DNA of 64,000 nucleotides, from contig NZ_VTRT01000007.1 in the NCBI RefSeq assembly GCF_008274585.1, positions 1-64,000 on the forward strand. The letters are read 5' to 3'. Source of the stretch: Pedobacter sp. BS3. GTDB lineage: Bacteria; Bacteroidota; Bacteroidia; Sphingobacteriales; Sphingobacteriaceae. The notes beneath the pieces were generated by a model. It was not told where the DNA came from. It made no database searches and saw only the letters and a list, made by a program, of their open reading frames with translations. This document shows, one piece after another, positions 6,729 through 57,750 of the stretch. Position numbers and translations under genes: made by a program. The first letter of the stretch is position 1. Every line of letters starts with the position of its first letter.

Positions 6729-6756
6729 AAGGTTGAAGGCGTAAGAGGGTAAATGA

Positions 6757-6805
6757 TGACAGTTGACAGATGACAATTGACAGATGATAATTGACAGCTG
6801 ACAGT
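6757..6805. repeat. Seven perfect-period heptanucleotide repeats (TGACARW)
   Basis: Seven consecutive 7-mers of the form TGACAGT/TGACAGA/TGACAAT with no phase slip, between the pseudouridine synthase stop and the lactonase start. The flanks (aggttgaaggcg on the left, agaaggtaaaagac on the right) hold further, weaker 7-nt periodicity. No gene lies in this 247-base gap. Confidence 0.85.
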
Positions 6806-6975
6806 GTCTATGGTTCATAGTTCATGGCGGATAGTTGGAAAGGGACAAGAAGGTAAAAGACGGGAAGAAGGTAGACGGTTTAAGGCATAAAGCAAACAAT
6901 TAATCACATGGTTTATCTTAATACTAATTACTGCGACCTGATACTGATAACGAACAACGAAAGACGAACAACGGA

Positions 6976-8118
6976 ATGAACAGAAACTTTTTCGGCAAGA
7001 AGATTATATTGCTTTTCGCATTTATCAGCACAATGGGAATAACAGAAGCGCAAACCTATAATCTGCTCATTGGCACTTATACCAAATCGGGCAAAAGCGA
7101 AGGTATTTACGTATATACGTTCAATGCCGAAACCGGATTCCTGAATCCTAAAAATAAGGCTACAGGTATCGAAAATCCATCGTACCTGGCGCTTTCACCA
7201 GACCTTACCAAAGTGTATTCTGTTTCGGAGTTCGGTAAAGAACGCAACGGAAGCGTATACGCCTATGATTTTGATGCGGCCACAGGTGGGCTTAAATTTC
7301 TTATTAAAAAACCCTCGATTGGTGCAGGCCCATGCTATATTGCTGTTGATGCCCATGCTAAGTATGTATTTACCGCTAATTATGCCGGAGGCAGCTTAAC
7401 CGCTATTCCGCTTAACAACGATGGTTCATTAAGCGACAGTGTGCAGCTTATTCAGCATACCGGCAAAAGTATCAATCCCACCCGGCAGCAGGAACCGCAT
7501 GTGCATAGTACGGTATTGTCGCCGGATAATAAGTTTGTTTTTGTGTCTGATTTAGGGACTGATAAGATTTATAGTTATCGCCTTTCGGCGGATAATAAGT
7601 CAAAGCCGTTAGCTGCCGCGAATCCTCCGTATGTGCAGGTTAAGGCCGGGAACGGTCCGCGGCATTTGGTGTTTAGCAACAATGGTAAATTTGCCTACCT
7701 GATAACCGAAATGGGAAGCAACGTGATCGCCTTCCGTTATAAAGATGGTATGTTAAAACAATTGCAAAGTACAAGTATGCTGCCCGAAGGTTTTACAGGG
7801 AAAGCAGGAGCGGCAGCCATTCATATCTCACCTGATGGCAAGTTTTTATATGCATCAAACCGGCTTGATTTGAATGAAATTGTGATCTATAAAATCAATA
7901 CCCACACCGGTAAATTAACATACGTTGGCCGGGAATCGTCAAAAGGTACGCACCCGCGTGATTTTGCCATCGACCCAACCGGCAATTTTTTGCTGGTTGC
8001 CAACCAGGATACCAATGACATCTATGTATTCAAACGCAATAAAACCACCGGACTGTTAACCTATAACGGTAATAAGCTGGAAGTTGGCCAACCGGTTTGT
8101 TTGAAGTTTGTACATTAA
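6976..8118 (+). CDS. Secreted lactonase-family seven-bladed beta-propeller (6-phosphogluconolactonase type)
   Basis: A 380-residue protein with a signal peptide (FGKKIILLFAFISTMGITEAQ), then YNLLIGTYTKSGKSEGIYVY, the hallmark start of the lactonase/YbhE propeller. Blades repeat around GAGPCYIAVDAHAKYVFTANY, EPHVHSTVLSPDNKFVFVSD, GPRHLVFSNNGKFAYL and GTHPRDFAIDPTGNFLLVANQ. Relatives hydrolyse 6-phosphogluconolactone, but exported Bacteroidota members probably act on other sugar lactones. The last eight codons are part of the 205-bp unit repeated four times downstream. Confidence 0.88.
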   Translation: MNRNFFGKKIILLFAFISTMGITEAQTYNLLIGTYTKSGKSEGIYVYTFNAETGFLNPKNKATGIENPSYLALSPDLTKVYSVSEFGKERNGSVYAYDFDAATGGLKFLIKKPSIGAGPCYIAVDAHAKYVFTANYAGGSLTAIPLNNDGSLSDSVQLIQHTGKSINPTRQQEPHVHSTVLSPDNKFVFVSDLGTDKIYSYRLSADNKSKPLAAANPPYVQVKAGNGPRHLVFSNNGKFAYLITEMGSNVIAFRYKDGMLKQLQSTSMLPEGFTGKAGAAAIHISPDGKFLYASNRLDLNEIVIYKINTHTGKLTYVGRESSKGTHPRDFAIDPTGNFLLVANQDTNDIYVFKRNKTTGLLTYNGNKLEVGQPVCLKFVH

Positions 8119-8911
8119 ACAATTGCTTGTCGCGATGTGTATGGCGTATGTTCTCACATCATAATCTTGTGTAAGCCAGGTGATAGCGCTCGTTTGTAAC
8201 GAGTGCTTTATTTTGTTGTGATTGTATCACAAACAAGCATTTTTTTGTGGCGTTATAAACACCTGATAAGGCTGCACTCGTTACAAGCGAGCGCAAGCGG
8301 TTTGTTTGAAGTTTGTACATTAAACAATTGCTTGTCGCGATGTGTATGGCGTATGTTCTCACATCATAATCTTGTGTAAGCCAGGTGATAGCGCTCGTTT
8401 GTAACGAGTGCTTTATTTTGTTGTGATTGTATCACAAACAAGCATTTTTTTGTGACGTTATAAACGTCGGATAAGGCTGCACTCGTTGCAAACGAGCGCA
8501 AGCGGTTTGTTTGAAGTTTGTACATTAAACAAATTGTGTGTTGCGATGTGTATGGCGTATGTTCTCACATCATAGTCTTGTGTAAGCCAGGTGATAGCGC
8601 TCGTTTGTAACGAGTGCTTTATTTTGTTGTGATTGTATCACAAACAAGCATTTTTTTGTGACGTTATAAACGTCGGATAAGGCTGCACTCGTTGCAAACG
8701 AGCGCAAGCGGTTTGTTTGAAGTTTGTACATTAAACAAATTGTGTGTTGCGATGTGTATGGCGTATGTTCTCACATCATAGTCTTGTGTAAGCCAGGTGA
8801 TAGCGCTCGTTTGTAACGAGTGCTTTATTTTGTTGTGATTGTATCACAAACAAGCATTTTTTTGTGACGTTATAAACGTCGGATAAGGCTGCACTCGTTG
8901 CAAACGAGCGC
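8093..8911. repeat. Four tandem ~205-bp repeats spanning the lactonase 3' end
   Basis: Units begin at 8093, 8298, 8503 and 8709 (205, 205, 206 and about 203 bp). Each starts CGGTTTGTTTGAAGTTTG, the end of the lactonase gene with its TAA, so copies 2-4 carry a fossil of that gene's tail. Each unit contains a ~21-bp imperfect inverted repeat (GCGCTCGTTTGTAACGAGTG and its partner) enclosing a smaller one (TTGTGAT/ATCACAA). Copies 3 and 4 are nearly identical; copy 1 differs most in its right half. This fills the 827-base gap before aroK; I see no gene in it. Confidence 0.95.
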
Positions 8912-16218: not shown

Positions 16219-16274
16219 AGTTTATGCTCTTTATCTTGTTTCTTGATTCTATGTTCTTGTATCTCTTTTATCGC

Positions 16275-16309
16275 TTTTCACTTTCAACTTTTCACTTTCA
16301 ACTTTCATC
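16275..16309. repeat. Five heptanucleotide repeats over the regulator stop codon
   Basis: Alternating TTTTCAC and TTTCAAC units in strict 7-nt phase. The array covers the last codons and stop of the TetR-type gene, so its C-terminal residues are repeat-encoded. Confidence 0.85.
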
Positions 16310-16897
16310 CGGTTTCAGGCCTTTTAATACAATTTCCAGGGTTTGGTTCATAATATCTTCCGAAAGGGTGAATTTATTTCCGGCCATATTTACGCCTAAC
16401 TGGTGAAACTGTACCAGGCTGTACAATGGCGCAAATGCCACTGACCAGTACACTTCCACCGGGACTTTGACCAATTCTTTTCGCTCAATGGCATGGTGCA
16501 CAAACCGATCCATTTTATCTTTAAACGTTTCATTTACCATACCAATTACTTTTTCGTGAAGTGATGAATGCCGGATTTGCTCTATGAAAATTGCTTTGTC
16601 TTTATGCTCCATAATGTATCTTGAGCGATTCATCCATTGGATGCGCAGCCCTTCGCTGAAAGGCATAGCCGGGTCGAAATTTTTCATGGTTTCTTCGGAC
16701 ATTCGCTGACTTTCTTCTTTGTATAAGCTCAAAATCAGGTCCTCTTTATCTTTGTAATAAATGTAAATGGTGGCCGGCGATACTCCTGCAGCCCTGGCCA
16801 GCTTTTGTATGCTGAATTCGTCCAGGCCCTTTTTTACAATCATATCCAGGGCAGTTTGCCTGAGCTTTATCTCTTTATTACTGTCACGGTTCCTCAT
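16298..16897 (-). CDS. TetR/AcrR-family transcriptional regulator
   Basis: A 199-residue repressor-type protein. The N-terminal helix-turn-helix is LRQTALDMIVKKGLDEFSIQKLARAAGVSPATIYIYYKDKEDL; the remainder is the helical ligand-binding domain (YRPF-like FAPLYSLVQFHQLGV). It precedes the two ABC exporter genes on the same strand, with a palindrome just upstream of its own start that suits a TetR operator. Inference: it represses itself and the exporter, and possibly the divergent MFS gene, and is released by an exported compound. Confidence 0.92.
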   Translation of the reverse strand: MRNRDSNKEIKLRQTALDMIVKKGLDEFSIQKLARAAGVSPATIYIYYKDKEDLILSLYKEESQRMSEETMKNFDPAMPFSEGLRIQWMNRSRYIMEHKDKAIFIEQIRHSSLHEKVIGMVNETFKDKMDRFVHHAIERKELVKVPVEVYWSVAFAPLYSLVQFHQLGVNMAGNKFTLSEDIMNQTLEIVLKGLKPDES

Positions 16898-23359: not shown

Positions 23360-24190
23360 TTATTTCAGCATTTTGGTGCCAAAAGTATTGTTATCCAACT
23401 GGTCAAGCTCATCGGATTTGCCGATATATACCGCATTAACCCCTTTTCGGATAGCATCAAACGCGTTTTGCAATTTGGGAATCATTCCACCGGCAACTAT
23501 ACCATCGGCTTTTAATTGCTCAAACTGGTCAGCTTTGATTTCATGCACAACCGATGCCTCATCGTTAACATCCCGCAAAACCCCTTTCTTTTCAAAGCAA
23601 TATACCAAATTGGTTTCATATATTGATGACATGGCTACTGCCAGCGCCGATGCAATGGTATCGGCATTGGTATTGAGCAACTGGCTTTCGCCATCGTGTG
23701 TAATGGCCGAAAACACGGGAACGAAATTGCTTTGCAATAATTTGTCCAGAGCGTCTGTGCGTACCGAATGTTCATCCAAATCACCTACAAAACCGTAATC
23801 AATGGAAGCCCCCTCTAAATCTCCCCCTAAGGGAGAGACTTTTTGGATTGGACGTTTTTTTGCCCGGATAATATTCCCGTCGGCTCCGGTTAGCCCGATA
23901 GCATCGCAGCCTTTAGCCTGTAGCTGTGCTACCATATTTTTATTGATGAGTCCGGCGTAAACCATAGTGACTACCCGCAACGTCTCAATATCGGTTATCC
24001 GGCGACCATCCACCATTTTTGCTTCTATTCCCAGCGTTTTGCTTAATTCGGTAGCGATTTTACCGCCACCATGTACCAGGATTTTATTTCCTTTCAGAGC
24101 AGTAAAATCCAGCAGGAACTGGTGCAGGTTTTCGGAGTTATCGATAACATTGCCGCCGATTTTTATAACGTAGAGTGAAGGCTTTTGCAT
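23360..24190 (-). CDS. argB: Acetylglutamate kinase (N-acylglutamate kinase) with an in-frame repeat insertion
   Basis: A 276-residue amino acid kinase. The N-terminal glycine loop is VIKIGGNVID, followed by KILVHGGGKIATELSKTLG, VDGRRITDIETLRVV, AIGLTGADGNII and LNTNADTIASALAVAM, which together define ArgB. Between RPI and IDYGFVGD there are 13 extra residues (KVSPLGGDLEGAS) encoded by a palindromic repeat. The insertion falls in a loop and all catalytic segments are intact, so the enzyme is probably active. Three bases separate it from argF'. In this pathway it may act on the N-succinyl form. Confidence 0.94.
   Translation of the reverse strand: MQKPSLYVIKIGGNVIDNSENLHQFLLDFTALKGNKILVHGGGKIATELSKTLGIEAKMVDGRRITDIETLRVVTMVYAGLINKNMVAQLQAKGCDAIGLTGADGNIIRAKKRPIQKVSPLGGDLEGASIDYGFVGDLDEHSVRTDALDKLLQSNFVPVFSAITHDGESQLLNTNADTIASALAVAMSSIYETNLVYCFEKKGVLRDVNDEASVVHEIKADQFEQLKADGIVAGGMIPKLQNAFDAIRKGVNAVYIGKSDELDQLDNNTFGTKMLK
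23804..23842. repeat. Palindromic element inserted in frame in argB
   Basis: On the coding strand CTCTCCCTTAGGGGGAG is followed by ATTTAGAGGGGGC. It encodes 13 residues in one reading frame with no stop. Same family and same orientation relative to coding as the copies in argF' and argC. Confidence 0.85.
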
Positions 24191-24193
24191 GTT

Positions 24194-25183
24194 TTATTGT
24201 AAATCCGATAATATTTGTTTCAATACGGCCTGTGCTGCCCAAAGCCTGTTACCGGCTTCGTGAATAACCAGCGAGTTCGGGCCATCTAATATTTCAGAGG
24301 ATAATTCCAAATCCCGGCGTACCGGCAGGCAATGCATTACTTTCCCGTTGTTGGTCAGTTTCAGCTTTTCATTGTTCATCATCCAGCCATCGGGATAAGT
24401 TAATACTCTACCATATTCTTTATAGCTCGACCAGTTTTTTACGTAAATATAATCGGCTCCGCTCAGGGCTTCTTCTAAACTGTGGGTAATGGTTGCTCCG
24501 GGTGTAAAGTCAGGATTTAATTCGTATCCCTCAGGTTGGGCAATGGTAAAATCGAGCATGCTTTCCTGTTGGGCACGACACATCCACTCGGCAAATGAGT
24601 TAGGTACGGCCTGCGGCAGGGCTTTTACATGCGGCGCCCAGGCAAGTACAACTTTAGGAAGCCTCACCCCAACCTTCTCCGAAGGAGAGTGAGCTTTCCA
24701 TGTTTCGGTAATGGTCACCAGGTCGGCAAGGCTTTGCAGCGGATGCCGGGTAGCGCTCTCTAAACTTACTACCGGAACGCCGCAATATTTCACAAATTTA
24801 TTGAAGAAGTCTTCGTTGTAATCTTCTTCGCGGTTATGCAGCTTGGGGAATGAGCGCAGGCCGAGAATATCACAATACTGTCCCATTACAGCCGCCGCTT
24901 CGCGGATATGCTCTACAGTAGTTCCGTTCATTACTACGCCATCCTGTGTTTCAAGCGCCCAGCCTTCTTTATCCATGTTCATTACCATCACACTCATGCC
25001 CAGGTTTATAGCAGCTTTTTGGGTACTTAACCGTGTGCGCAAACTGGGGTTTAAGAATACCAGCCCTAAGGTTTTATTTTTCCCCAAATGCTGATGCGCA
25101 TACGGATTGGCTTTTAAATCCAACGCATCCTGAACTAACTTTTTGATGTCTGTTACATCGTGTACGGAAGAGAAGAGTCTCAT
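24194..25183 (-). CDS. argF': N-succinylornithine/N-acetylornithine carbamoyltransferase
   Basis: A 329-residue transcarbamylase of the SOTCase/AOTCase branch, not ordinary ArgF: the carbamoyl-phosphate loop is SLRTRLSTQKAA instead of STRTR. Also seen: RHPLQSLADL, TWAP-type WAPHVKALPQAVPNSFAEW and the C-terminal HCLPVRRDL. These enzymes carbamoylate N-acylornithine to N-acylcitrulline. In GTTVEHIREA the residue that I believe distinguishes acetyl (Glu) from succinyl (Pro) specificity is Val, so acetyl seems less likely. Twelve residues (AHSPSEKVGVRL) come from an inserted palindromic repeat. A heptad array abuts the start codon. Confidence 0.93.
   Translation of the reverse strand: MRLFSSVHDVTDIKKLVQDALDLKANPYAHQHLGKNKTLGLVFLNPSLRTRLSTQKAAINLGMSVMVMNMDKEGWALETQDGVVMNGTTVEHIREAAAVMGQYCDILGLRSFPKLHNREEDYNEDFFNKFVKYCGVPVVSLESATRHPLQSLADLVTITETWKAHSPSEKVGVRLPKVVLAWAPHVKALPQAVPNSFAEWMCRAQQESMLDFTIAQPEGYELNPDFTPGATITHSLEEALSGADYIYVKNWSSYKEYGRVLTYPDGWMMNNEKLKLTNNGKVMHCLPVRRDLELSSEILDGPNSLVIHEAGNRLWAAQAVLKQILSDLQ
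24659..24694. repeat. Palindromic element inserted in frame in argF'
   Basis: On the coding strand CTCTCCTTCGGAGAAGG is followed by TTGGGGTGAGGC. It adds 12 codons between conserved ETWK and PKVVLAWAP. Confidence 0.85.
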
Positions 25184-25218
25184 TTTAAGTTGTAAGTTTT
25201 AAGTTATACGTAATACGT
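25184..25218. repeat. Heptad array, argF' side of four-helix gene A
   Basis: Five 7-mers (TTTAAGT, TGTAAGT, TTTAAGT, then TATACGT and AATACGT) start at the base next to the argF' ATG. The array is nearly complementary to the one on the other side of gene A: TTAAGTTATACGT here against ACGTATCACTTA there. Confidence 0.85.
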
Positions 25219-25226
25219 AGTTTGCA

Positions 25227-25583
25227 CTACTTATTTCTAACTTTAGTAATCAAATTAATGAGCATTGCCTTAATAGTATTTATTGTGTTCTCCAATTCAA
25301 AAAAATCGGTTTCGGAAATGTATTGCAAATCTTTACATAATAGTAAAAAGTAATCTGTTTCATTTGCAGAACCAAGCGAAATGTTTAGGAAATTAGCCAT
25401 ATCGAGCTGAGAGTTCTTCCCACATCCCTCAGCAATATTTGCAGGAATTGAAGCCGCTGATCTTCTAATCTGACTTGTAATTCCGAAAATCTCTTCTTTA
25501 GGGAATTTGGCAGTTATCCGATAAATATCAAGAACAAGCAAGTGCGATTTCTCCCAAACTTTTAGCTCCTTGTAGTTCTGCAT
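25227..25583 (-). CDS. Four-helix-bundle protein A (23S rRNA IVS/Avd-like family)
   Basis: A 118-residue protein: YKELKVWEKSHLLVLDIY, PKEEIFGITSQIRRSAASIP, NIAEGCGKN and the C-terminal IKAMLINLITKVRNK. This is the 'four helix bundle protein' family (TIGR02436), first known from intervening sequences in 23S rRNA and related in fold to the Avd protein of diversity-generating retroelements. Members bind nucleic acid through a basic face; their cellular role is unknown. It sits between argD and argF', unrelated to arginine synthesis, with complementary heptad arrays on both sides. Confidence 0.92.
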   Translation of the reverse strand: MQNYKELKVWEKSHLLVLDIYRITAKFPKEEIFGITSQIRRSAASIPANIAEGCGKNSQLDMANFLNISLGSANETDYFLLLCKDLQYISETDFFELENTINTIKAMLINLITKVRNK

Positions 25584-25601
25584 AATTTCTTACATAGCTT
25601 A

Positions 25602-25636
25602 AAAACGTATCACTTATAACGTATCACTTATAACCT
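25602..25636. repeat. Heptad array, argD side of four-helix gene A
   Basis: Five 7-mers alternating ATCACTT with ATAACGT or close variants. The argD stop codon and last codons lie inside the array. Confidence 0.85.
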
Positions 25637-26753
25637 CTTTAAATGCCTCCAAAAACTCATCTGCATGTTCCTTTGTCAGGTTTAATGCGGGTAGCAGCCG
25701 GATAACGTTTGGCTTGGCTTCGCCGGTAAAGATATGATGTTTGAATAACAGGTTCTTTCTTACCGCCGATTTTTCTGCGGGCAAATCAATGCCGATCATC
25801 AGTCCCCGTCCACGAACTTCATGAATGCCATCCAGTTTTTTCAACTCGCTAATCAGGTAGTTGCCAACTTCGGCGGCATTTTGCATCAGGTTATCGTGCT
25901 CCATAATTTCAAGCACAGCCAACGCTGCTGCACAGGCCAGATGGTTGCCTCCGAATGTGGTACCCAGCATACCATGCCAGGGTTTAAATTTAGGCGCAAT
26001 AGATATTCCGCCAATCGGGAAACCGTTGCCCATTCCCTTTGCCATGGTATAGATATCGGCCTCAACGCCGGCATAATCATGCGAATAAAATGAACCGGTT
26101 CGTCCGTAGCCGCACTGCACGCTATCGGCAATGTAAACAGCATTATATGCATCGCAAAGCGACCGTATTTTTTGCAGGAAACTTTTTGACGCTTCTTTAA
26201 TACCGCCTACGCCCTGGATACCTTCAATAATAATCGCCGCGATTTCGTCGCCTTGTTTTTGAAAAAGCTCTTCCAGAGCAGCTTCATCATTGTGCGGCAA
26301 AAAAATCACATTGCCGGTTTGGTTTACCGGCGCTACAATTTTAGGGTTATCGGTTACAGCAACAGCTAACGACGTCCGTCCGTGGAAAGCGCCGGAAAAA
26401 GCTACAACTTTCTTTCTTCCGTTATAAAACGATGCCAGCTTTAACGCGTTCTCATTAGCTTCTGCCCCTGAATTACACAAGAACAGCTGATAATCCGTTT
26501 TTCCCGAAACCTGACCGAGCTTTTCGGCCAGTTGCTGCTGTAACGGAATTTTCACTGAGTTGGAATAAAAACCAACTTTATTTAACTGCTCAGTAATGCG
26601 TTTTACATAATGCGGGTGGGTGTGCCCGATGGAAATTACAGCATGACCGCCGTAAAGGTCTAAATATTGTTGTCCCTCAGCATCCCAGACATTACTGCCT
26701 GCTGCTTTTACAATTTCTATGTTGTTAAGTGGGTAAACGTCGAATAGATTCAT
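25614..26753 (-). CDS. argD: Acylornithine aminotransferase
   Basis: A 379-residue class III PLP aminotransferase. Seen: GHAVISIGHTHPHYV, LCNSGAEANENALKLA, FSGAFHGRTSLAVAVT, IIIEGIQGVGGI, ADSVQCGYGRTG and the lysine in YTMAKGMGNGFPIGG. It converts N-acylglutamate semialdehyde to N-acylornithine with glutamate as donor. All active-site motifs are present and the length is normal. Its 3' end (EVISDTL) is encoded by a heptad array, and its start is four bases from the end of four-helix gene B. Confidence 0.94.
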   Translation of the reverse strand: MNLFDVYPLNNIEIVKAAGSNVWDAEGQQYLDLYGGHAVISIGHTHPHYVKRITEQLNKVGFYSNSVKIPLQQQLAEKLGQVSGKTDYQLFLCNSGAEANENALKLASFYNGRKKVVAFSGAFHGRTSLAVAVTDNPKIVAPVNQTGNVIFLPHNDEAALEELFQKQGDEIAAIIIEGIQGVGGIKEASKSFLQKIRSLCDAYNAVYIADSVQCGYGRTGSFYSHDYAGVEADIYTMAKGMGNGFPIGGISIAPKFKPWHGMLGTTFGGNHLACAAALAVLEIMEHDNLMQNAAEVGNYLISELKKLDGIHEVRGRGLMIGIDLPAEKSAVRKNLLFKHHIFTGEAKPNVIRLLPALNLTKEHADEFLEAFKEVISDTL

Positions 26754-26757
26754 TTTG

Positions 26758-27168
26758 TTAAGGTTTAAAGGTTGAAGGCGGAAGGTTTGAAGGCACAGCC
26801 TGACTATCCTGCCCTTTCCTTAAAAATTTAATAAACGCAATTAACATTGCTTTAATCTCATTAATGTCTTTATAAACAATCAAATAGTCTTCTTCACTTA
26901 TATATCCTAAGTCCTTAATCAGTATAAACGCATATTCCACTTCTTTTGTCGAACCAAGTGCATTATCAAGATAGTGGGTAAAATCTTTGTCTGTGTTTTT
27001 TCTAGAACCCTCTACAATGTTTAGTGGAATAGAATACGCCGCTCGTCGAATTTGCTGAGTCAATGCAAATTTTTCTTCCGAAGGCATTAAAGGCAATATC
27101 TTTTGATATACCTGCAAGGTAAAAGAATGCGCTTTTTTCCAAATATCTAACTTCTGATAATCTCTCAT
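26758..27168 (-). CDS. Four-helix-bundle protein B (23S rRNA IVS/Avd-like family)
   Basis: A 136-residue family member: DYQKLDIWKKAHSFTLQVY, ALTQQIRRAAYSIPLNIVEG, KDFTHYLDNALGSTKEVEY and IKAMLIAFIKFLRKG. It is clearly diverged from copies A and C, so it is not a recent duplicate of either. The last ~14 residues (AVPSNLPPSTFKP) are translated from the flanking heptad array and replace the usual short basic tail. It lies between argC and argD, four bases before the argD start. Role unknown; nucleic-acid binding is inferred from the family. Confidence 0.92.
   Translation of the reverse strand: MRDYQKLDIWKKAHSFTLQVYQKILPLMPSEEKFALTQQIRRAAYSIPLNIVEGSRKNTDKDFTHYLDNALGSTKEVEYAFILIKDLGYISEEDYLIVYKDINEIKAMLIAFIKFLRKGQDSQAVPSNLPPSTFKP
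26760..26794. repeat. Heptad array, argD side of four-helix gene B
   Basis: Five 7-mers of type GAAGGTT (AAGGTTT, AAAGGTT, GAAGGCG, GAAGGTT, TGAAGGC). It overlaps the 3' end of gene B. Complementary to the array at 27185-27240 (AAGGTTGAAGGCGG type against CCACCTTCAACC). Confidence 0.88.
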
Positions 27169-27184
27169 TGCTTATCGTTCATTT

Positions 27185-27240
27185 GACCTTCTGCCTTTCT
27201 ACCCTCCACCTTCAACCTAAAACCCGACAGCCTTCAGCCT
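27185..27240. repeat. Heptad array, argC side of four-helix gene B
   Basis: Eight 7-mers with a CCT core in constant phase (GACCTTC, TGCCTTT, CTACCCT, CCACCTT and so on). It extends across the argC stop codon into its final codons. Confidence 0.85.
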
Positions 27241-28269
27241 CAGTCCAGCCCGCTCATCCAGTCCAAAGAGCAGATTCATATTCTGAACGGCCTGTCCGCT
27301 GGCGCCCTTTAGCAGGTTATCGGTGATGCTTACAATAAATAACCGGTTACCGTGCTTTTCTAAATATATCAGGCATTTATTGGTGTTCACCACCTGCTTT
27401 AAATCGATATTCTTACGACTTACGTGTGTAAACGGTTCATTAGCGTAATAATCTTCGTACAGGTTTTGGACTTCTTCTAATGACAGGTCGCAGTCGGTGT
27501 ACATGGCGGCCAGAATACCGCGTGTAAAATCGCCGCGTTGCGGAATAATGGTAAGCTTCTGTGCCGCCCGTTCCAGTAAGGAAAGTTCAGACACCGGCAG
27601 AAATCCTGGTTGTAATTGATTTAACGATTCGCTGATTTCCTGCAAATGCTGATGCGTAAATACCTTGTAAACCGATAGGTTATTATTCCTCCAGCTAAAA
27701 TGTGAGGTTGCCGACAGACTTTGTCCCGCTCCGGTAGAACCAGTGGTGGCGTTGATATGAACCTCGCTTTTCAGCAAACCTTTTGCCGCCAATGGCAATA
27801 AACCTAACTGTATACCGGTTGCAAAACAGCCGGGATTAGCAATGTTCTTAGCGGTTTTTATGCTGTCGCGATTAAGCTCAGGTAAACCATAAACAAAAGC
27901 CCCTCCCAGCCTCCCCGAAAGGGAGGAGTTGGCCTTCAATCTAAAATCTTGCGATAAGTCGATAATTTTAATACGTTCAGCAACCGGGTTTGCTTCGAGG
28001 AACTTCCGGGCATCGCCGTGCCCAACACATAAAAATAGTATATCGGCCTCTCCCAAACCCTCTCCAAGGGAGAGGGCTTCGAGCACCTCGTTGCCACAAA
28101 ATTTCAAATCAGTATCGCCAAACAAATCGGTATGCACATCCGATATGAAATTGCCGGCATTACTTTTACTGTGCACAAATGCTATTTCAACATCCGGATG
28201 ATTGACCAGGATACGCAGCATTTCGCCGCCTGTATAACCTGCTCCGCCTATAATTCCCGCCTTTATCAT
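27217..28269 (-). CDS. argC: N-acyl-gamma-glutamyl-phosphate reductase with two in-frame repeat insertions
   Basis: A 350-residue NADPH-dependent reductase making N-acylglutamate semialdehyde. The nucleotide motif is GIIGGAGYTGGEMLRIL, the active-site cysteine is in NIANPGCFATGIQL, and TGSTGAGQSLSATSHF and the C-terminal NLLKGASGQAVQNMNLL are typical. Two palindromic elements add about 12 residues each: EALSLGEGLGEA after the early NEVL and ANSSLSGRLGGA between DFRLK and FVYGLPEL. Both sit in loops, so the protein is probably functional. Its C-terminus runs into a heptad array. Confidence 0.94.
   Translation of the reverse strand: MIKAGIIGGAGYTGGEMLRILVNHPDVEIAFVHSKSNAGNFISDVHTDLFGDTDLKFCGNEVLEALSLGEGLGEADILFLCVGHGDARKFLEANPVAERIKIIDLSQDFRLKANSSLSGRLGGAFVYGLPELNRDSIKTAKNIANPGCFATGIQLGLLPLAAKGLLKSEVHINATTGSTGAGQSLSATSHFSWRNNNLSVYKVFTHQHLQEISESLNQLQPGFLPVSELSLLERAAQKLTIIPQRGDFTRGILAAMYTDCDLSLEEVQNLYEDYYANEPFTHVSRKNIDLKQVVNTNKCLIYLEKHGNRLFIVSITDNLLKGASGQAVQNMNLLFGLDERAGLRLKAVGF
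27898..27933. repeat. Palindromic element inserted in frame in argC (site 1)
   Basis: On the coding strand CCTCCCTTTCGGGGAGG is followed by CTGGGAGGGGC. Twelve codons, no stop, between DFRLK and the conserved FVYGLPELN. Confidence 0.85.
28045..28080. repeat. Palindromic element inserted in frame in argC (site 2)
   Basis: On the coding strand CCTCTCCCTTGGAGAGG is followed by GTTTGGGAGAGGC. Twelve codons between NEVL and DILFLCVGHG. Confidence 0.85.
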
Positions 28270-28318
28270 AAGTTTAAAGTTGAATGTTCAAAGTTTAAAG
28301 TTCAGGGCTCAAATCTGA
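28270..28318. repeat. Heptad array, argC side of four-helix gene C
   Basis: Seven 7-mers of type AAGTTTA, AAGTTGA, ATGTTCA beginning at the base next to the argC ATG and covering the stop codon of gene C. Confidence 0.88.
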
Positions 28319-28661
28319 CTTTCTTAATTAGTGAAATTAACATTGCCTTAATTTCTCCCGCTTCTTTTTCTAATTCCACAAACAATTCGTTATCAATAAA
28401 TTTTAAATCTTTCGACAATAATAATTGATATTCTAACTCATGAACTGAACCCAAAGCTGTTTGTAGAAAATTCGCCAGGTCTTTTTGTGTGTATCTACCG
28501 CATCCTTCGGCAATATTAGTTCCTATGGATGAAGCAGACCGCTTAATTTGACTTGTTAAATTGTAGGTTTCTTCTTTAGGGAAAGACGTAACAACAGCAT
28601 ACATTTTCAATGTAAAATGATGTGCTTTCTGCCATACCAACAGTTCTTTGTAATTTTGCAC
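28302..28661 (-). CDS. Four-helix-bundle protein C (23S rRNA IVS/Avd-like family)
   Basis: A 119-residue family member with a GTG start: QNYKELLVWQKAHHFTLKMY, NLTSQIKRSASSIGTNIAEG, KDLANFLQTALGSVHELEY and IKAMLISLIKKVR. It is closer to A than to B but still well diverged. It lies between argG and argC; its last codons (FEP) and stop are inside one heptad array, and another array separates its start from the argG stop. Same family inference as copies A and B; no link to arginine chemistry. Confidence 0.92.
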   Translation of the reverse strand: MQNYKELLVWQKAHHFTLKMYAVVTSFPKEETYNLTSQIKRSASSIGTNIAEGCGRYTQKDLANFLQTALGSVHELEYQLLLSKDLKFIDNELFVELEKEAGEIKAMLISLIKKVRFEP

Positions 28662-28665
28662 GGTA

Positions 28666-28693
28666 CTTTTAACTTTCCACTTTTAACCTTCAA
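28666..28693. repeat. Heptad array, argG side of four-helix gene C
   Basis: Four 7-mers (CTTTTAA, CTTTCCA, CTTTTAA, CCTTCAA) that include the argG stop codon. Approximately complementary to the array at 28270-28318. Confidence 0.85.
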
Positions 28694-29883
28694 CTCTGCT
28701 CGCTGTTTACCTTATGCCAAATCATTACCTGGTTGCCAAAGATTTTTGAAAATCCTTTCACATCTTCGCCGGTCCAGGCATTGTTCATTTCGCCATAGCT
28801 GCCAAATTTGCTACTCATTAAATCGTGCGGCGATTCAATACCGATAACCTGGAAGCGATAAGGCAACAATTCTACAAATACATTTCCGGTCACCGTACGC
28901 TGGGTAGAGGTTAAGAAGGCCTCAATATCTCTCATAATGGGGTCGTGAAACTGCCCCTCGTGCAGCCAGTTACCGTAAAACGATGCCAGTTGCTCTTTCC
29001 AACTCAGCTGCCATTTGGTTAAAGTATGTTTTTCGAGCGTATGGTGCGCTTTGATGATGATCATCGGTGCAGCTGCCTCAAAACCAACCCGGCCTTTGAT
29101 ACCGATAATGGTATCGCCTACATGAATATCGCGACCAATGCCATACGCTTGTGCAATAGCCTGTAGCTTCTGTATCGCTTTAACAGGAGAAAGTTTCTCA
29201 CTATTAATACCTGTCAGCTCGCCTTTTTCAAATGATAATTCCAGCCTGCGTGGCGCTGTTTCGGTTACCTGTGTTGGCCATGCTTCTTCCGGAAGGGTAT
29301 CATGACTGGTCAGCGTTTCTTTACCGCCAACGGACGTTCCCCATAAACCTTTATTGATAGAATACTTCGCTTTTTCAGCATTATAGTTTACGCCGTGCTT
29401 GTGCAGGTATTCTATCTCCGCTTCTCGCGATAACTTCAAATCGCGGATAGGTGTGATGATCTCAACATTCGGAATAAGGATATTAAAGATCATATCAAAA
29501 CGCACCTGGTCATTACCGGCGCCGGTGCTGCCATGTGCCACGTAATCGGCACCGATCTTTTTTACATAATTGGCAATAGCCGTTGCCTGGCTCACCCGCT
29601 CGGCGCTTACCGATAGCGGATAAGTGGCGTTTTTAAGCACATTGCCAAATACCAGATATTTAATGCAGCTGTTGTAATAATTTTCAGTTTCGTCTACTAC
29701 AGCATGCGAAGCTACGCCCAGGACATAGGCACGTTTCTCAATCTCATTTAGCTCTTCATCAGAAAAGCCACCGGTATTCACAATAACTGTATGCACTTCC
29801 AGCCCGCGATCCTGCGCCAGATAAATGCAACAAAACGAGGTATCCAAACCTCCGCTAAATGCTAAAACAACTTTTTTCTTCAT
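28690..29883 (-). CDS. argG: Argininosuccinate synthase
   Basis: A 397-residue ATP-dependent ligase joining citrulline and aspartate. The pyrophosphatase-type P-loop is LAFSGGLDTSFCCIYL; AHGSTGAGNDQVRFD and KGLWGTSVGGKET are the other family signatures. Full length. Its ATG overlaps the stop of the upstream GNAT gene (TAATG), so the two are translationally coupled at the head of the operon. In the N-acyl pathway it acts after deacylation to free citrulline. Confidence 0.96.
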   Translation of the reverse strand: MKKKVVLAFSGGLDTSFCCIYLAQDRGLEVHTVIVNTGGFSDEELNEIEKRAYVLGVASHAVVDETENYYNSCIKYLVFGNVLKNATYPLSVSAERVSQATAIANYVKKIGADYVAHGSTGAGNDQVRFDMIFNILIPNVEIITPIRDLKLSREAEIEYLHKHGVNYNAEKAKYSINKGLWGTSVGGKETLTSHDTLPEEAWPTQVTETAPRRLELSFEKGELTGINSEKLSPVKAIQKLQAIAQAYGIGRDIHVGDTIIGIKGRVGFEAAAPMIIIKAHHTLEKHTLTKWQLSWKEQLASFYGNWLHEGQFHDPIMRDIEAFLTSTQRTVTGNVFVELLPYRFQVIGIESPHDLMSSKFGSYGEMNNAWTGEDVKGFSKIFGNQVMIWHKVNSEQS

Positions 29884-33878: not shown

Positions 33879-35273
33879 TTAATCCGTTAGTTTTTGGATC
33901 AATTGCTCCCTGTCCAGTTGCTGCTGCTCGCCGGTTTTCATATTTTTCAGCGTCAGCTTACCCGACTGAATTTCTTCGCTGCCTATCAGGATAACAAACG
34001 GAATTTGCTTGGCATCGGCATAGCTCATTTGCTTTTTCAACTTCGCTGACGCCGGGTACAATTCTGTTGCTATTTGCAGCGAGCGTAACTGTGTAAGCAA
34101 AGGCAGGGCATAGCGCTCGCTTTCCGCATCAAAATTGGTGATCAATACCTTAGTGGTTTCGTTAGCCGATTCAGGGAACAGTTGGAGCTCTTCCATTACA
34201 TCATAGATACGATCGGCGCCAAATGAAATACCCACGCCTGTCAGCCCTTTGAGCCCGAACATCCCCGTAAGGTCATCATAACGGCCACCACCGCCAATGC
34301 TGCCAATAGAAACACCATTAGCTTTTACCTCGAAGATGGCCCCGGTATAATAGTTCAGTCCGCGGGCAAGGGTAATATCTAATTGGATTTGAGATTTGAG
34401 ATTTGAGATTTGAGATGTGAGGTCTTTCAGGTATTTAAAAATAGTTTCAATTTCTGCGATGCCTTTCAGCCCGGTTGCTGATACGGCCAGTACTGCTTTT
34501 AACGAAGCTATTTTTTCTTCGTTTGTGCCTTCCAGCAGGATAACCGGTTTCAGCTTTTCGATGTCAGAAGCAGTAAAGCCACGTTCAAGCAGCTCATTAA
34601 TTACGCCATCCAGCCCGATTTTATCCAGCTTGTCAATGGCCACGGTCATATCCACAATGAGTTCCGGCTTGCCGATAATTTCTGCTATACCCGATAATAT
34701 TTTGCGGTTATTGATCTTGATGGTAACATCGGTCAATCCCAGGTTGCACAGGGCCTCATCGTAAATCAAAATGAACTCCGCTTCGTTCAGCAGGCTGTCT
34801 GAACCAACCACGTCGGCATCGCACTGGTAAAATTCGCGGTAACGTCCTTTTTGCGGACGGTCGGCCCGCCAAACCGGCTGTACCTGGAAACGTTTGAACG
34901 GAAACGCGATATCGTTCTGGTGCATCACTACATAACGGGCAAAAGGTACGGTGAGGTCATAGCGAAGCGCCTTTTCTGAAATATAGGAGGTTAGTTTTGC
35001 ACTGCCGTTTTCATCAGTAAAATCAACATCCTTTTTCCGGGCAGCATTCAGAAAATTCCCTGAGTTCAGTATCTTAAAAATCAGCTTATCGCCTTCATCA
35101 CCGTATTTGCCGGTCAGGGTATCCAGGTTTTCCATGCTTGGCGTCTGTATCTCCTGGTAGCCGTATTTCCTGAACACTGTTTTAATGGTGTCAAAAATAT
35201 AATTGCGTTTTACCATCTCAACCGGTGAAAAATCGCGTGTGCCTTTTGGAACAGAAGTCTTAATGCTCGCCAT
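33879..35273 (-). CDS. hisS: Histidyl-tRNA synthetase carrying an internal heptad-repeat segment
   Basis: A 464-residue class II synthetase. Motif 1 region: [18 protein letters not shown]; motif 2: [20 protein letters not shown]; histidine-specific loops: [14 protein letters not shown] and [16 protein letters not shown]. The anticodon-binding domain is at the C-terminus. Just before [14 protein letters not shown], about 12 residues ([11 protein letters not shown]) are encoded by a 7-nt tandem repeat, a spot where other HisS have a short loop. The start at 35273 (MASIKTS) is chosen because an upstream -7 box overlaps the longer option. Confidence 0.94.
34387..34421. repeat. Five heptads (ATTTGAG) inside hisS
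   Basis: Four exact ATTTGAG copies plus ATGTGAG in one phase on the plus strand, within the coding region of an essential gene. Three heptads equal seven codons, so only changes of three units would keep the frame. Confidence 0.9.
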
Positions 35274-35778: not shown

Positions 35779-35808
35779 TTTGTTTATTACATTTATTCCT
35801 TATCTTAG
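35779..35808 (+). promoter_or_regulatory. Promoter of the fluoride-resistance operon
   Basis: TTTG at 35779-35782, an 18-base spacer, then TATCTTAG (one mismatch to TAnnTTTG). Transcription would begin close to the first base of the riboswitch, which supports both calls. Confidence 0.6.
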
Positions 35809-35813
35809 CCCTA

Positions 35814-35864
35814 CGGAAATGGTGTCTTCCGATTTAACCGCCCTAAAAAGCTGATGGCGCCTGC
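35814..35864 (+). promoter_or_regulatory. Fluoride riboswitch (crcB motif)
   Basis: P1 is CGGAA (35814) with TTCCG (35827). The conserved ATGGTGTC is followed by AACCGC and GCTGATGGCGCCTGC. The pseudoknot GGTGTC (35821-35826) with GGCGCC (35856-35861) pairs fully, allowing two G-U pairs. This is the published crcB aptamer layout. It heads an operon containing crcB, a CLC-F antiporter and enolase, the genes it is known to control, and should raise their expression when fluoride binds. Confidence 0.92.
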
Positions 35865-35867
35865 AAA

Positions 35868-35893
35868 CAGAATGAGCAATGTTGCTTGTTCTG
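35868..35893 (+). promoter_or_regulatory. Hairpin directly after the fluoride aptamer
   Basis: CAGAATGAGCAA pairs with TTGCTTGTTCTG (two G-U pairs). Its position suits an expression platform, but no T run follows, so it is not a classic terminator. The rest of the 135-base leader to the first gene shows nothing else I can name. Confidence 0.45.
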
Positions 35894-40083: not shown

Positions 40084-40158
40084 ACTGTAGAGCCGATTAA
40101 CTGTAAGTTATGATACATGTAATTTATCTTTATCGTGATGATTCTAAACCAGGTGGGT

Positions 40159-40193
40159 ACTTTAAACCTTTAACTTTATACTTTTAACTTTCA
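40159..40193. repeat. Five heptads (ACTTTWA) running into the crcB start codon
   Basis: ACTTTAA, ACCTTTA, ACTTTAT, ACTTTTA, ACTTTCA in exact phase; the last base is the A of the crcB ATG. The repeat supplies the whole translation-initiation region. Confidence 0.88.
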
Positions 40194-40567
40194 TGCGACC
40201 CTTACTCATTATATTTTTAGGTGGTGGTTTAGGCTCCGTTTTACGGTACCTGGTAAACCGGTGGGTAACCGGTTTAATAGCCTCTGTTTTTCCCTACGGA
40301 ACGTTTCTGGTAAACATTACCGCCTGTTTTCTTATTGGCTTTTTAGTTTTTTTTAGCGACCGGCTGGGGGCAGGTTCGCTAAACTGGCGCTTATTCCTGA
40401 TAACAGGACTTTGCGGCGGTTACAGCACATTTTCATCCTTTACATTCGAAAACGTACAGTTAATAAGCGACCATCAGCTGTTTACCATGTTGCTGTACAC
40501 CGTGAGCAGTATTGCACTGGGATTTTTAGCAACCTATATGGGCATATTGGTTGCACGTAACATTTAA
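40193..40567 (+). CDS. crcB: Fluoride channel CrcB/Fluc
   Basis: A 124-residue four-helix membrane protein: FLGGGLGSVLRYLVNRW, YGTFLVNITACFLIGFLV, GLCGGYSTFSSFTFENV (the channel-lining GGxSTFSSF motif) and a last hydrophobic helix. It forms dual-topology dimers that let fluoride out of the cell. Presence together with a CLC-F gene means two independent fluoride export routes in one operon. Confidence 0.95.
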   Translation: MRPLLIIFLGGGLGSVLRYLVNRWVTGLIASVFPYGTFLVNITACFLIGFLVFFSDRLGAGSLNWRLFLITGLCGGYSTFSSFTFENVQLISDHQLFTMLLYTVSSIALGFLATYMGILVARNI

Positions 40568-42481: not shown

Positions 42482-42520
42482 TTGGATTTAGATTTTAAAG
42501 CCCCGATGGTTAGTGATTCG

Positions 42521-42555
42521 TCCATTATCAACTGTCCATTGTCAACTATCAAATC
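42521..42555. repeat. Five heptads (TCCATTA/TCAACTG alternating)
   Basis: Five 7-mers in one phase downstream of cfa, separated by about 30 bases of non-repetitive sequence from a longer array. Confidence 0.8.
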
Positions 42556-42586
42556 GCTTCCGAACTTTTCCAGCTTTCGGACTAAA

Positions 42587-42663
42587 CCCTCCGCCTTCCG
42601 CCCTTTAACCTAAAAAACGTACCACGTAAAACCTACAACTTATAACCTTCCACCTTTCAACTA
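42587..42663. repeat. Eleven heptads ending in a stop codon
   Basis: Eleven 7-mers (CCCTCCG, CCTTCCG, CCCTTTA, ACCTAAA and so on to TCAACTA) without phase slip. The last overlaps the stop codon of the leftward coiled-coil gene. Confidence 0.85.
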
Positions 42664-43272
42664 TCTTATTCCCCGGCTCATGTATTCATCCAGCTTATTG
42701 CGTTCGTCCTGCAGTTCACGGGCAAGTTTTTTCTCCTTTTCGTTGGCCCGGATCTTATGGTTTTGGTATTCTTCCGATAGCTCCTCAAAAAGTTTGATCC
42801 GGTAACGGGCTTCTTTTCTATGACGTGCCCCCTGGAAAACAAAAAAAGCCAGCACAGCTGCCAGGGCAAAAACCAGTAGCCACATAATGGTGCTATAAGT
42901 GCCTTTATTAATAGGTATGCCCAGGAATTTAATTTCGTTTACCATCGCGTTTGATTCGGCAAGCGTTTTATCCTTATTGGCCATGTTGTTTTTCAAATCG
43001 GCTATCACCTGTTGCTGTTCGTTCAGCTTATTTTGTAACTGGGCAGCATGGGCTCTTGCTTTACTTAAGGTGTCTGAAAAGTTTTTCCAGAGAGCGGCTA
43101 ACCGCGATTGATTAATGACCTTGTAACCCTGGTAATTGTTCGATTTGGATAGCATGTACAGGTACTGGCCCCGCAAGGTATTGTCTTTCACAGCTGTGGT
43201 GTCCTGCGCCATTGCCACCGAAACGGCAGACAGCCATCCCAAAAACATGCACGAAATAAATAATAGTTTCAT
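42661..43272 (-). CDS. Membrane-anchored coiled-coil protein, function unknown
   Basis: A 203-residue protein. Signal peptide MKLLFISCMFLGWLSAVSVAMAQ, a periplasmic helical region with coiled-coil character (SKARAHAAQLQNKLNEQQQVIADLKNNM), one membrane helix (TIMWLLVFALAAVLAFFVFQ) and a basic, charged cytoplasmic coiled coil to the end. The gene is conserved-looking but I recognise no catalytic domain. It is transcribed alone and diverges from the prephenate dehydrogenase gene. Confidence 0.8.
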   Translation of the reverse strand: MKLLFISCMFLGWLSAVSVAMAQDTTAVKDNTLRGQYLYMLSKSNNYQGYKVINQSRLAALWKNFSDTLSKARAHAAQLQNKLNEQQQVIADLKNNMANKDKTLAESNAMVNEIKFLGIPINKGTYSTIMWLLVFALAAVLAFFVFQGARHRKEARYRIKLFEELSEEYQNHKIRANEKEKKLARELQDERNKLDEYMSRGIR

Positions 43273-57007: not shown

Positions 57008-57430
57008 ATGTTACAGCCAAAGAGAACGAAGTTCAGAAAAATGCAGAAAGGCCGCATGAAGGGCCTGGCCACCCGCGGTGCTGACCTTGCATTTGGTTCT
57101 TTCGGAATAAAATCATTAGAACCGGCCTGGATCACCAGCCGTCAGATAGAAGCTGCACGTATTGCCGTAACACGTTTCATGAAACGTGAAGGCCAGGTGT
57201 GGATCCGCATTTTCCCGGACAAACCGGTTACCAAAAAACCTGCCGAAGTACGGATGGGTAAAGGTAAAGGTGCTCCCGAGTATTGGGTAGCGGTAGTGCG
57301 TCCCGGAAGAATGATTTTTGAGGCCGAAGGTGTGCCTTTAGAAGTAGCTAAGGAAGCATTGCGCCTGGCAGCTCAGAAATTACCGGTACAAACAAAATTT
57401 GTAGTACGTAGAGATTACGTAGAAGCATAA
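57008..57430 (+). CDS. rplP: 50S ribosomal protein L16
   Basis: 140 residues: [87 protein letters not shown]. It binds between the A-site tRNA and 5S region and its conserved GKGKG loop is intact. Downstream, where rpmC usually follows at once, lies an 86-base heptad-repeat insertion. Confidence 0.98.
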
Positions 57431-57436
57431 AGAGGA

Positions 57437-57511
57437 GTGATAGGTGTTAGGTGATATGTTATAGGTGCACAACTTAAACTTAAAACTTAAAACCTACAAC
57501 TTAAAACTTAG
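57437..57511. repeat. Heptad array between rplP and rpmC with two opposed halves
   Basis: Ten 7-mers plus a partial one. The first five are of type GTGATAG/GTGTTAG, the last five of type CTTAAAA/CCTACAA, which are partly complementary. It resembles the flanks of a four-helix-bundle cassette with the gene missing. Confidence 0.85.
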
Positions 57512-57516
57512 AAAAG

Positions 57517-57750
57517 ATGAAGACCTCAGAAATTTTAGAGCTATCAACAGACGAGATTGTATCCCGCATCAGCGAAGAAAAAGCCAATCTCACCAGATTA
57601 AAATTTGCGCATGCCGTATCTGCTATCGAGAATCCTTCCCGCATTAGCAAGGTTAGAAAAGACATCGCACGTTTAAATACAGAATTGACTAAGCGCAAAG
57701 CGGAAGCTAAGGCTTCTGCCGAGTCAGAGTCCGCTTCTGAAACAGAATAA
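57517..57750 (+). CDS. rpmC: 50S ribosomal protein L29 with an acidic tail
   Basis: 77 residues: [61 protein letters not shown] is the two-helix L29 fold at the tunnel exit. The C-terminal ~15 residues ([16 protein letters not shown]) are an acidic low-complexity tail beyond the usual ~63-65 residues. Start set by conserved MKxxE. Confidence 0.96.

Follow-up and report, generated by a model that had tools for sequence, protein, structure and literature searches.

Three genes of the four helix bundle (IVP) family lie within the arg gene cluster of Pedobacter sp. BS3, in a window of 64,000 nucleotides (nt) to which all position numbers below refer (the window is the whole stretch of DNA analysed, and its gene calls are plain open reading frame (ORF) calls). 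Each of them is bracketed by two arrays of tandem heptads, the arms, that are complementary to each other, and we call the gene with its two arms an IVP unit. Judging from sequence comparisons, IVP units with complementary arms are general and present in many phyla, and we incline, with moderate confidence, to the view that gene and arms together form a spreading unit whose IVP protein recognises its own arrays. The cluster is organised as follows:

23360-24190, minus strand: argB
24194-25183, minus strand: carbamoyltransferase gene of the N-acetylornithine/ornithine kind (argF-type)
25184-25226: left array of unit A, G-rich, words of AAGTTAT/ACGTAAT type
25227-25583, minus strand: IVP gene of unit A, 118 amino acids, between argD and the argF-type carbamoyltransferase gene (PF05635 139 bits, TIGR02436 134 bits)
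25596-25643: right array of unit A, C-rich, complementary to the left array, its outer part overlapping the 3' end of argD
25614-26753, minus strand: argD
26754-26800: left array of unit B, GGTTGAAGG type, which encodes the C-terminus of the IVP
26758-27168, minus strand: IVP gene of unit B, 136 amino acids, between argC and argD (PF05635 122 bits, TIGR02436 113 bits)
27182-27248: right array of unit B, CCTTCAACC type, its outer part overlapping the 3' end of argC
27217-28269, minus strand: argC
28262-28313: left array of unit C, AAGTTTA type
28302-28661, minus strand: IVP gene of unit C, 119 amino acids, between argG and argC (PF05635 131 bits, TIGR02436 129 bits)
28656-28708: right array of unit C, ACTTTTAACTT type, its outer part overlapping the 3' end of argG
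28690-29883, minus strand: argG

All three proteins match both PF05635 (23S_rRNA_IVP) and TIGR02436 (four helix bundle protein), whose cut-offs are 33.8 and 24 bits. The first-pass annotation of this DNA, made from the letters alone, had described 7-nt-period arrays on both sides of each gene; its coordinates and sequences agree with the window, and lag 7 scores highest among lags 5 to 9 in all six arms. Tandem Repeats Finder reports four of the six arrays (A left 25186-25205, A right 25604-25634, C left 28270-28302/28313, C right 28665-28695), while both arrays of unit B are under its threshold and were detected solely by the lag-7 scan. The complementarity of the arms, expressed as a local score, is 18 for unit A, 19 for B and 17 for C, values that are reached by 2, 0 and 0, respectively, of 2000 dinucleotide-preserving shuffles of both arms. 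Arms of different units score 8-14 against each other, so that the complementarity is indeed kept within pairs, as had been claimed.

The same organisation recurs elsewhere in the BS3 genome (4.81 Mb in 27 contigs), which has 12 IVP genes (14 profile hits, two genes being split). With a threshold of 17 out of 28 lag-7 matches in fixed-length flanks, an ad hoc value applied identically to controls, arrays are present on both sides of 8 of the 12 IVP genes versus 2 of 383 control genes. At least one side carries a heptad array in 65 of these 383 controls; it is thus the pair of inverted brackets, and not mere proximity, that marks IVP genes. In 10 of the 12 units the left arm is fitted best by the right arm of the same unit, ahead of the 11 others; in the two that fail (L006 and L007) arrays are visible but partly clipped by the fixed flank. 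From this and the other locus sets we dropped the second halves of the split genes (L013, L014), two truncated rows (L019, L043), a short one (L112) and one with no IVP at the guessed place (L248).

Distribution of the units

IVP is present in 41 of the 61 genomes of the bacterial family of BS3. At the same threshold, 22 of the 27 loci from relatives carry an array on one side or both (on both in 18); among named genomes this is so for 34 of 41 Bacteroidota-group loci (both in 18) and 33 of 38 loci of other phyla (both in 16), lags 5, 6, 8, 9 and 10 giving 0 to 5 in each of the last two groups. The corresponding figures are 14 of 23 (both in 12) for class-wide and cyanobacterial-plasmid loci, with period 8 instead of or in addition to period 7 in 8 of them, and 44 of 50 (both in 31) for further loci; repeat loci (for example L234 = L041, L237 = L040, L279 = L171) remain in these two counts, and some sets, including that of the other phyla, consist of best matches and not of a random sample. 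The other phyla include, as labelled, Acidobacteria, Chloroflexota, Planctomycetota, Poribacteria and Desulfobacterales, together with a Methylobacillus, and four cyanobacterial plasmid IVPs carry lag-7 arrays. The pattern holds in Bacteroidota, for which the first-pass annotation had proposed a scan, and is not confined to them. A minority of IVP genes elsewhere has no array at the threshold used; family genes without arrays, which that annotation had named as a result that would speak against it, are not the rule. As for carriage, we found one phage record (a partial match) and 39 plasmid records, mostly cyanobacterial.

For 151 distinct units (match of at least 300 nt at E 1e-10 or better, flanks of at least 110 nt, duplicates removed), the summed within-unit arm score is 2789, against a mean of 1507 and a maximum of 1620 in 5000 re-pairings, so that the complementarity exceeds that between randomly paired arms; the first-pass annotation had named the opposite outcome as one that would refute it. 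This permutation was used in place of a cross-pair control among the 27 relatives, in which homologous genes beside the units, lying in both orientations, distort the cross pairs (maximum 71) and no unit exceeds the 99% level. The period agrees between the arms in 85 of 92 two-array units (7/7 in 74, 8/8 in 10, 6/6 in 1) and is unequal in 7; the 5' arm is G-rich and the 3' arm C-rich in 72 of the 92, with the reverse in 4. We do not claim a fixed recognition core within the heptad, as phase conservation barely exceeds a uniform null, nor do we propose a TRAP-like ring with five heptads to each pentamer, because the detection window inflates the array lengths.

Some observations on individual loci may be added. 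Period 8 takes the place of period 7, mostly in both arms, in some families (L236, L238, L242, L247, L252). By eye, a second recurrent IVP site apparently precedes an acetyl-CoA acetyltransferase-like gene in several genera (L021, L023, L028, L033). On a Pseudanabaena plasmid (L254, 1501-1860) an IVP gene with long heptad arrays, here direct, lies between cas6 and cas4. IVP genes were already noticed in cas loci (18 genes, PMC3936711), and the L254 site suggests that these may be passengers; more generally, caution is needed with IVP genes inside arg or cas clusters, which may be passengers and not parts of the pathway.

Complementary arms and RNA

The resemblance to 23S rRNA intervening sequences, pointed out in the first-pass annotation, is real. 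In those of Coxiella and Leptospira, as here, an ORF of the S23p/IVP family stands in the loop between complementary ends; the Coxiella sequence is described as having a 28-bp terminal stem, which RNase III cleaves in vitro, and, ahead of the ORF, tandem heptamers (GACAGAT) in two or three copies according to the strain (PMC4990558). IVP genes were also noticed in rRNA insertions of bacteria of the candidate phyla radiation (PMC11270868). Unlike these intervening sequences, the window units are located between protein genes (argG, argC, argD and the argF-type gene) and not inside an rRNA gene, they come in several copies per genome with words that differ by site, arrays stand on either side of them, and they are accompanied by many scattered arrays that have no gene. 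An Rfam scan of the window gave a fluoride riboswitch as the sole hit above gathering score.

This likeness invites the hypothesis that the units are made for RNA processing: the arms would pair in the polycistronic RNA, RNase III would cut the stem and the IVP messenger would leave the arg transcript, selection on RNA pairing keeping the arms complementary. The arms do pair with each other in the minimum-energy folds of A, B and C, the three IVP genes share the strand of the arg genes, and the folds of A (z -3.16) and B (z -3.40) beat all 100 shuffles; that of C does not (z -0.79, 20 of 100 shuffles being equally good). The rRNA intervening sequences of the same protein family, with their heptamers and RNase III-cut stem, speak for it as well (PMC4990558). 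On the other hand, in 102 units with an arm score of at least 16 the mismatches between arms are of G-U type in 137 cases and of A-C type in 163 (p=0.15), and as there is no excess of G-U, RNA pairing is not supported as the force behind the complementarity; we reject it in that role. Moreover, of 117 units 81 have a gene of their own strand on each side and 36 do not, versus 111 of 184 background triples with such neighbours, and the hypothesis leaves unexplained both the scattered single arrays and their scarcity in genomes without IVP. We therefore regard a unit made for RNA processing as unlikely, RNA excision being possible and not favoured. By analogy with rRNA, it is likely enough that RNase III cuts those units that are transcribed, but this would not account for the scattered arrays.

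Arrays, repeat words and the IVP gene

We measured word similarity between the left arm of one unit and the right arm of another, a comparison that is not inflated by homology of neighbour genes on the same side. The arm score reaches at least 16 in 80% of 50 pairs whose IVPs are at least 70% identical, in 49% of 174 pairs at 60-70% identity, in 14% of 1310 pairs at 50-60%, and in 4-5% of pairs below 50%. When pairs with both members in arg clusters are set aside, words are shared by 40% of 101 pairs at 60-70% and by 76% of 21 pairs at 70% or more. Among pairs at least 60% identical for which no shared neighbour gene was found, 37 of 86 share words, the base rate being 4.5%. Some word-sharing pairs are labelled as belonging to different phyla (Methylobacillus, Actinobacteria, Deltaproteobacteria and Nitrospinota; a Dadabacterium and a Trichormus plasmid), labels that can be wrong where they come from metagenome bins. 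Comparison thus shows that gene and arms pass on jointly, and that IVPs which are close relatives of each other have related arms even where their sites have nothing in common, also across phyla. The protein itself is under purifying selection, with a ratio of nonsynonymous to synonymous substitutions of 0.04-0.09 in the five pairs, out of 8, that could be used (in the other three the synonymous distance was zero, not computable, or the wrong gene had been picked).

The argC|argD junction, where unit B is located, allows gene and arrays to be followed at one site. Among 48 argC matches 30 were used and 18 left out; argD adjoins argC in 23 of the 30, and the other 7 were dropped. An IVP gene, intact or broken, occupies 16 of these 23 junctions, and arrays of period 7 or 8 are present in 14 of the 16 (13 with period 7 alone), whereas none of the 7 IVP-free junctions, 15-83 nt long, has an array. 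Two IVP types with two word classes (AAGTTAT-like and AAAGGTG-like) occur at this junction, and their distribution does not follow host genera: L170, for instance, is 60-70% identical to ten argC|argD IVPs of other genomes and 57% identical to L162, of the same genus and at the same site. Since the types are found irrespective of host genus, either one IVP type replaced the other at a fixed site or a segment of the operon moved between hosts. The summed arm score at this junction is 395, above all of 20,000 permutations (best 366). As far as such comparisons go, the arrays belong to the unit and not to the place, and the earlier suggestion that they are the ends of a mobile unit is strengthened by their absence from junctions without the gene and by the words that related IVPs share at unrelated sites.

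Scattered arrays

A feature missed by the first-pass annotation is that many heptad arrays occur without a gene. In a 464-kb sample of BS3 there are 74 lag-7 segments, of which 62 are mostly intergenic and 12 mostly coding, whereas every other lag between 4 and 13 gives 3-24. In the window a heptad array (GATTTGA) is in frame within hisS (34368-34436), and together with those 12 segments it indicates that such arrays can occupy coding sequence. Scattered arrays of the window that match IVP units of the BS3 genome include these (arm score in brackets):

6735-6840: array without IVP, matching the arms of unit L009 (37)
6931-6983: array matching the arms of unit L001 (21)
16221-16323: two adjoining arrays, matching unit L012 (22) and unit C (24)
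40153-40200: array just upstream of an ORF start, matching unit C (20)
42507-42672: cluster of arrays, matching L009 (21) and unit A (24)
57421-57525: cluster of arrays, matching unit A (17 and 25)

Background to such arrays includes the STRR repeats of cyanobacteria and the heptads of tRNA-Leu introns.

We compared the abundance of intergenic arrays in 18 genomes of the family of BS3 (80-400 kb sampled from each), taking as zero-IVP those with no match at 1e-10. The lag-7 excess relative to other lags, expressed per 10 kb of intergenic sequence, is between -1.1 and 1.4 in the 8 zero-IVP genomes; it is positive in 9 of the 10 IVP genomes and goes up to 8.0 (Mann-Whitney p=0.0014, Spearman 0.79). 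These statistics ignore phylogeny apart from contrasts within genera, two of which agree: in genus g4 there are 0.56 arrays per 10 kb without IVP versus 7.07 and 4.71 with IVP, and in genus g13 none without versus 5.20 and 3.65 with.

The words of the scattered arrays mostly match, on sequence grounds, the resident IVP units. Against the arms of the 12 resident units of BS3, 42 of its 59 scattered arrays reach a score of at least 16, when 2000 draws of 12 foreign units give a mean of 24 and a maximum of 40. With control units of the same family (one of the 46, L019, actually belongs to another family) the mean of 19.66 obtained for BS3 (G000) with its own units is never reached (maximum 17.58, 0 of 2000 draws), and likewise for G057 (0 of 2000). 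In G057, 12 of 13 scattered arrays match resident units at 18 or more versus 2.4 for the draws, none of 2000 reaching this value; 5 of 2000 draws do so for G073, and 4 of 2000 for the acidobacterial G084, where L107 and L301 are one gene, so that five distinct units were counted as six. The units used, out of the IVPs present, were 10 of 10 in G057, 4 of 5 in G073, 6 of 9 in G061, 5 of 8 in G084 and 5 of 9 in G079. When five genomes are compared with one another, the arrays fit the units of their own genome best throughout, with a narrow margin in G061 and G000. Two-arm hairpins without a gene make up 15 of 27 cases in G084, 6 of 10 in G057 and 4 of 11 in G073, versus 1 of 8 in G013; for BS3 we reject the idea that the scattered arrays are such hairpins.

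These data bear on the hypothesis that the arrays came first, the heptads arising by replication slippage and hairpin-templated correction and the IVP genes merely sitting or inserting there. Heptads are said to be the commonest long simple repeats in most genomes of one survey, and slippage has been proposed for them (Mrazek 2007, as told in PMC4679880); the period varies (6, 7, 8) and yet matches between the arms, as a copying process would give, and 3 of 29 IVP-free argG|argC gaps hold a scattered array. However, arrays are absent from the 7 IVP-free argC|argD junctions, sampled IVP-free genomes have about no array excess, related IVPs share words at unrelated sites, and just 2 of 383 control genes are flanked by arrays left and right. 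We thus think it very unlikely that the arrays preceded the genes.

Another hypothesis would see in the heptads landing sites of a translational or transcriptional regulator, with IVP as this regulator. Scattered arrays are found at gene ends with a set polarity: on the sense strand, G-type outnumbers C-type 24 to 9 near 3' ends, and C-type outnumbers G-type 15 to 7 near 5' ends. Most TAACTGA arrays of one Beggiatoaceae genome are also said to directly precede start codons (PMC4679880). The polarity is nevertheless that of the arms of IVP units, and arms that once flanked a lost centre would produce it equally; the presence of arrays at one site (argC|argD) varies among relatives, and the neighbours range from arg to cas and secretion genes. 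A regulatory role of this kind seems to us highly improbable.

The IVP protein and its possible partners

To our knowledge, no function has been assigned to the IVP/S23p genes ("four helix bundle protein"), and we know of no nuclease or polymerase activity of IVP, nor of a nameable catalytic clue in the protein. The predicted model is a four-helix bundle (pLDDT 97) that matches solved IVP structures (VIA-align: 2gsc Z 21.4, 2rld Z 18.2) and next to them Avd of diversity-generating retroelements (8ub7 Z 15.7, 4dwl Z 15.5); the remaining Foldseek/VIA rows are common helical bundles and were not used. A likeness between PF05635 and Avd was noted previously (PMC10053308), and S23p of Xanthomonas is described as a toroidal homopentamer (as cited in PMC4990558). 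IVP is a probable pentamer with a predicted Avd fold. In Pfam the only match is PF05635, with a sub-threshold bAvd match for unit C and none to the HUH Y1 tyrosine transposases; the Avd profile NF033474 gives 24.6-33.2 bits, below its cut-off of 80. IVP shares with Avd the fold and weak sequence similarity; unlike a retroelement Avd, it scores below the Avd cut-off and is found in a genome, BS3, with no reverse transcriptase (RVT_1) match at E 1e-8, and we do not count it among these Avd proteins.

Might another enzyme move the arrays, either a Y1 (RAYT-like) transposase or a reverse transcriptase that IVP assists as an Avd-like helper? The Avd fold and the weak Avd matches point this way, all the more as Avd is described as essential to retrohoming (PMC10053308). 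The distribution of these enzymes, searched for as Y1 and RVT_1 at 1e-8, does not agree with it: besides the missing RVT_1, BS3 has a single Y1 match, G061 has arrays and neither enzyme, G057 has no Y1 match, and G044, with 3 Y1 and 16 RVT_1 matches, has no IVP and no array excess. Judged by such matches, the occurrence of arrays does not follow that of Y1 transposases or of reverse transcriptases, and neither was retained as a partner, the pattern in G057, G061 and G044 being a poor fit. We consider it quite unlikely that an enzyme of this kind moves the arrays.

A REP/RAYT-like organisation without transposase

The system that IVP units most recall is that of repetitive extragenic palindromic (REP) sequences and their associated transposases (RAYT), which are recognised by a gene always flanked by two inverted repeats, by coevolution of gene and repeat, and by repeat abundance that tracks the gene (PMC2817692). 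The IVP gene, too, stands between two inverted copies of a dispersed repeat, a few units having direct arms; gene and repeat coevolve, as judged by word sharing per identity class and at unrelated sites; and the dispersed arrays track the gene, G072, G079 and in part G054 being exceptions. In contrast to RAYT, IVP is a four-helix bundle and not an HUH Y1 tyrosine transposase, the repeats are tandem heptads and not palindromes (the scattered arrays of BS3 are self-complementary no more than cross pairs), and the scattered copies in BS3 are mostly single arms. The organisation of IVP units, as read from their sequences, is therefore REP/RAYT-like, without the transposase.

It is from this shared organisation that we think, by analogy, that IVP recognises its own arrays and that the units move. 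In the spreading unit that we favour, the IVP protein would recognise its arrays in DNA or RNA, and this recognition would drive or permit copying of the unit; the same recognition would seed single arrays and hairpins without a gene, the role proposed for RAYT transposases in the case of REPs, the catalytic step being due to an unrecognised activity of IVP or to a host enzyme. More tentatively, one can imagine a REP/RAYT-like class of spreading elements, occurring across bacteria and using no known transposase, that was founded by IVP and of which orphan heptads and rRNA intervening sequences are products. A pentameric four-helix protein would then read its own array, and this reading alone, perhaps by steering replication or repair, would copy arrays to new intergenic sites, and this would cover the orphan heptads of Bacteroidota, Acidobacteriota, Cyanobacteria and others.

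Several points weigh against a spreading unit of this kind, and readers should keep them in mind. No movement was directly seen, the comparison genomes being one per species. Over all pairs the correlation of words with protein identity is weak (Spearman 0.09), and pairs and genomes are not phylogenetically independent, locus L065 being in at least 7 of the 86 pairs at unrelated sites. Of 151 left arms, only 47 score highest with the right arm of their own unit (87 have it in the top five), so that the match is one of word class more than of exact letters; at argC|argD the own right arm comes first for 4 of 23, because units of one word class fit each other. The arms are direct instead of inverted in a few units (L041/L234, L254), and the variance of conservation by heptad position (0.0291, versus a uniform null mean of 0.0263 and maximum of 0.0295) is so close to the null that no recognition core is evident. 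The array excess of IVP and zero-IVP genomes overlaps, that of zero-IVP G054 (1.40) being above those of IVP-bearing G051 (0.98) and G021 (1.34); G072, with 2 IVPs, shows no excess in the part sampled, and a third within-genus contrast, in g3, is 0 versus 0. The word match is weak in G061 (100 of 2000 draws reach it; 5 arrays), and Maribacter G079, with 9 IVPs, has 3 arrays in 22.5 kb of intergenic DNA and no word match. Finally, the scattered arrays of BS3 are mostly single arms, with hairpins in 2 of 48 clusters (above the 95% level of cross pairs).

In the open-access literature, which lacks most subscription journals, we found no paper that ties IVP genes to heptad arrays generally, which is weak evidence that none exists. 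Heptamer arrays were described without an owner (PMC4679880): the TAACTGA repeats of Beggiatoaceae, Cyanobacteria and Bacteroidetes are, like those studied here, intergenic 7-nt arrays of similar look in some of the same phyla, and that paper makes no mention of the terms 23S, four helix or intervening. The tie between IVP and heptads makes both testable, as every IVP brings its own candidate target sequence. Should IVP recognise and spread its arrays, bacteria would possess a system of the REP/RAYT kind that lacks a transposase, of which the rRNA intervening sequences would be one special case.

Other repeats of the window

Another kind of intragenic repeat was seen by eye at 24660-24695, 27900-27930 and 28050-28080, where palindromic inserts of the CCCTCCC...GGGAGGG kind lie inside the argF-type gene and argC. 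A 206-bp tandem repeat in 4 copies (98% matches) is located at 8089-8911. The fluoride riboswitch (Rfam RF01734, 43.8 bits) occupies 35806-35870, upstream of the ORF at 36029. At 51783-52081, imperfect 63-nt tandem repeats lie within a gene that may, as a guess, encode a leucine-rich-type repeat protein.

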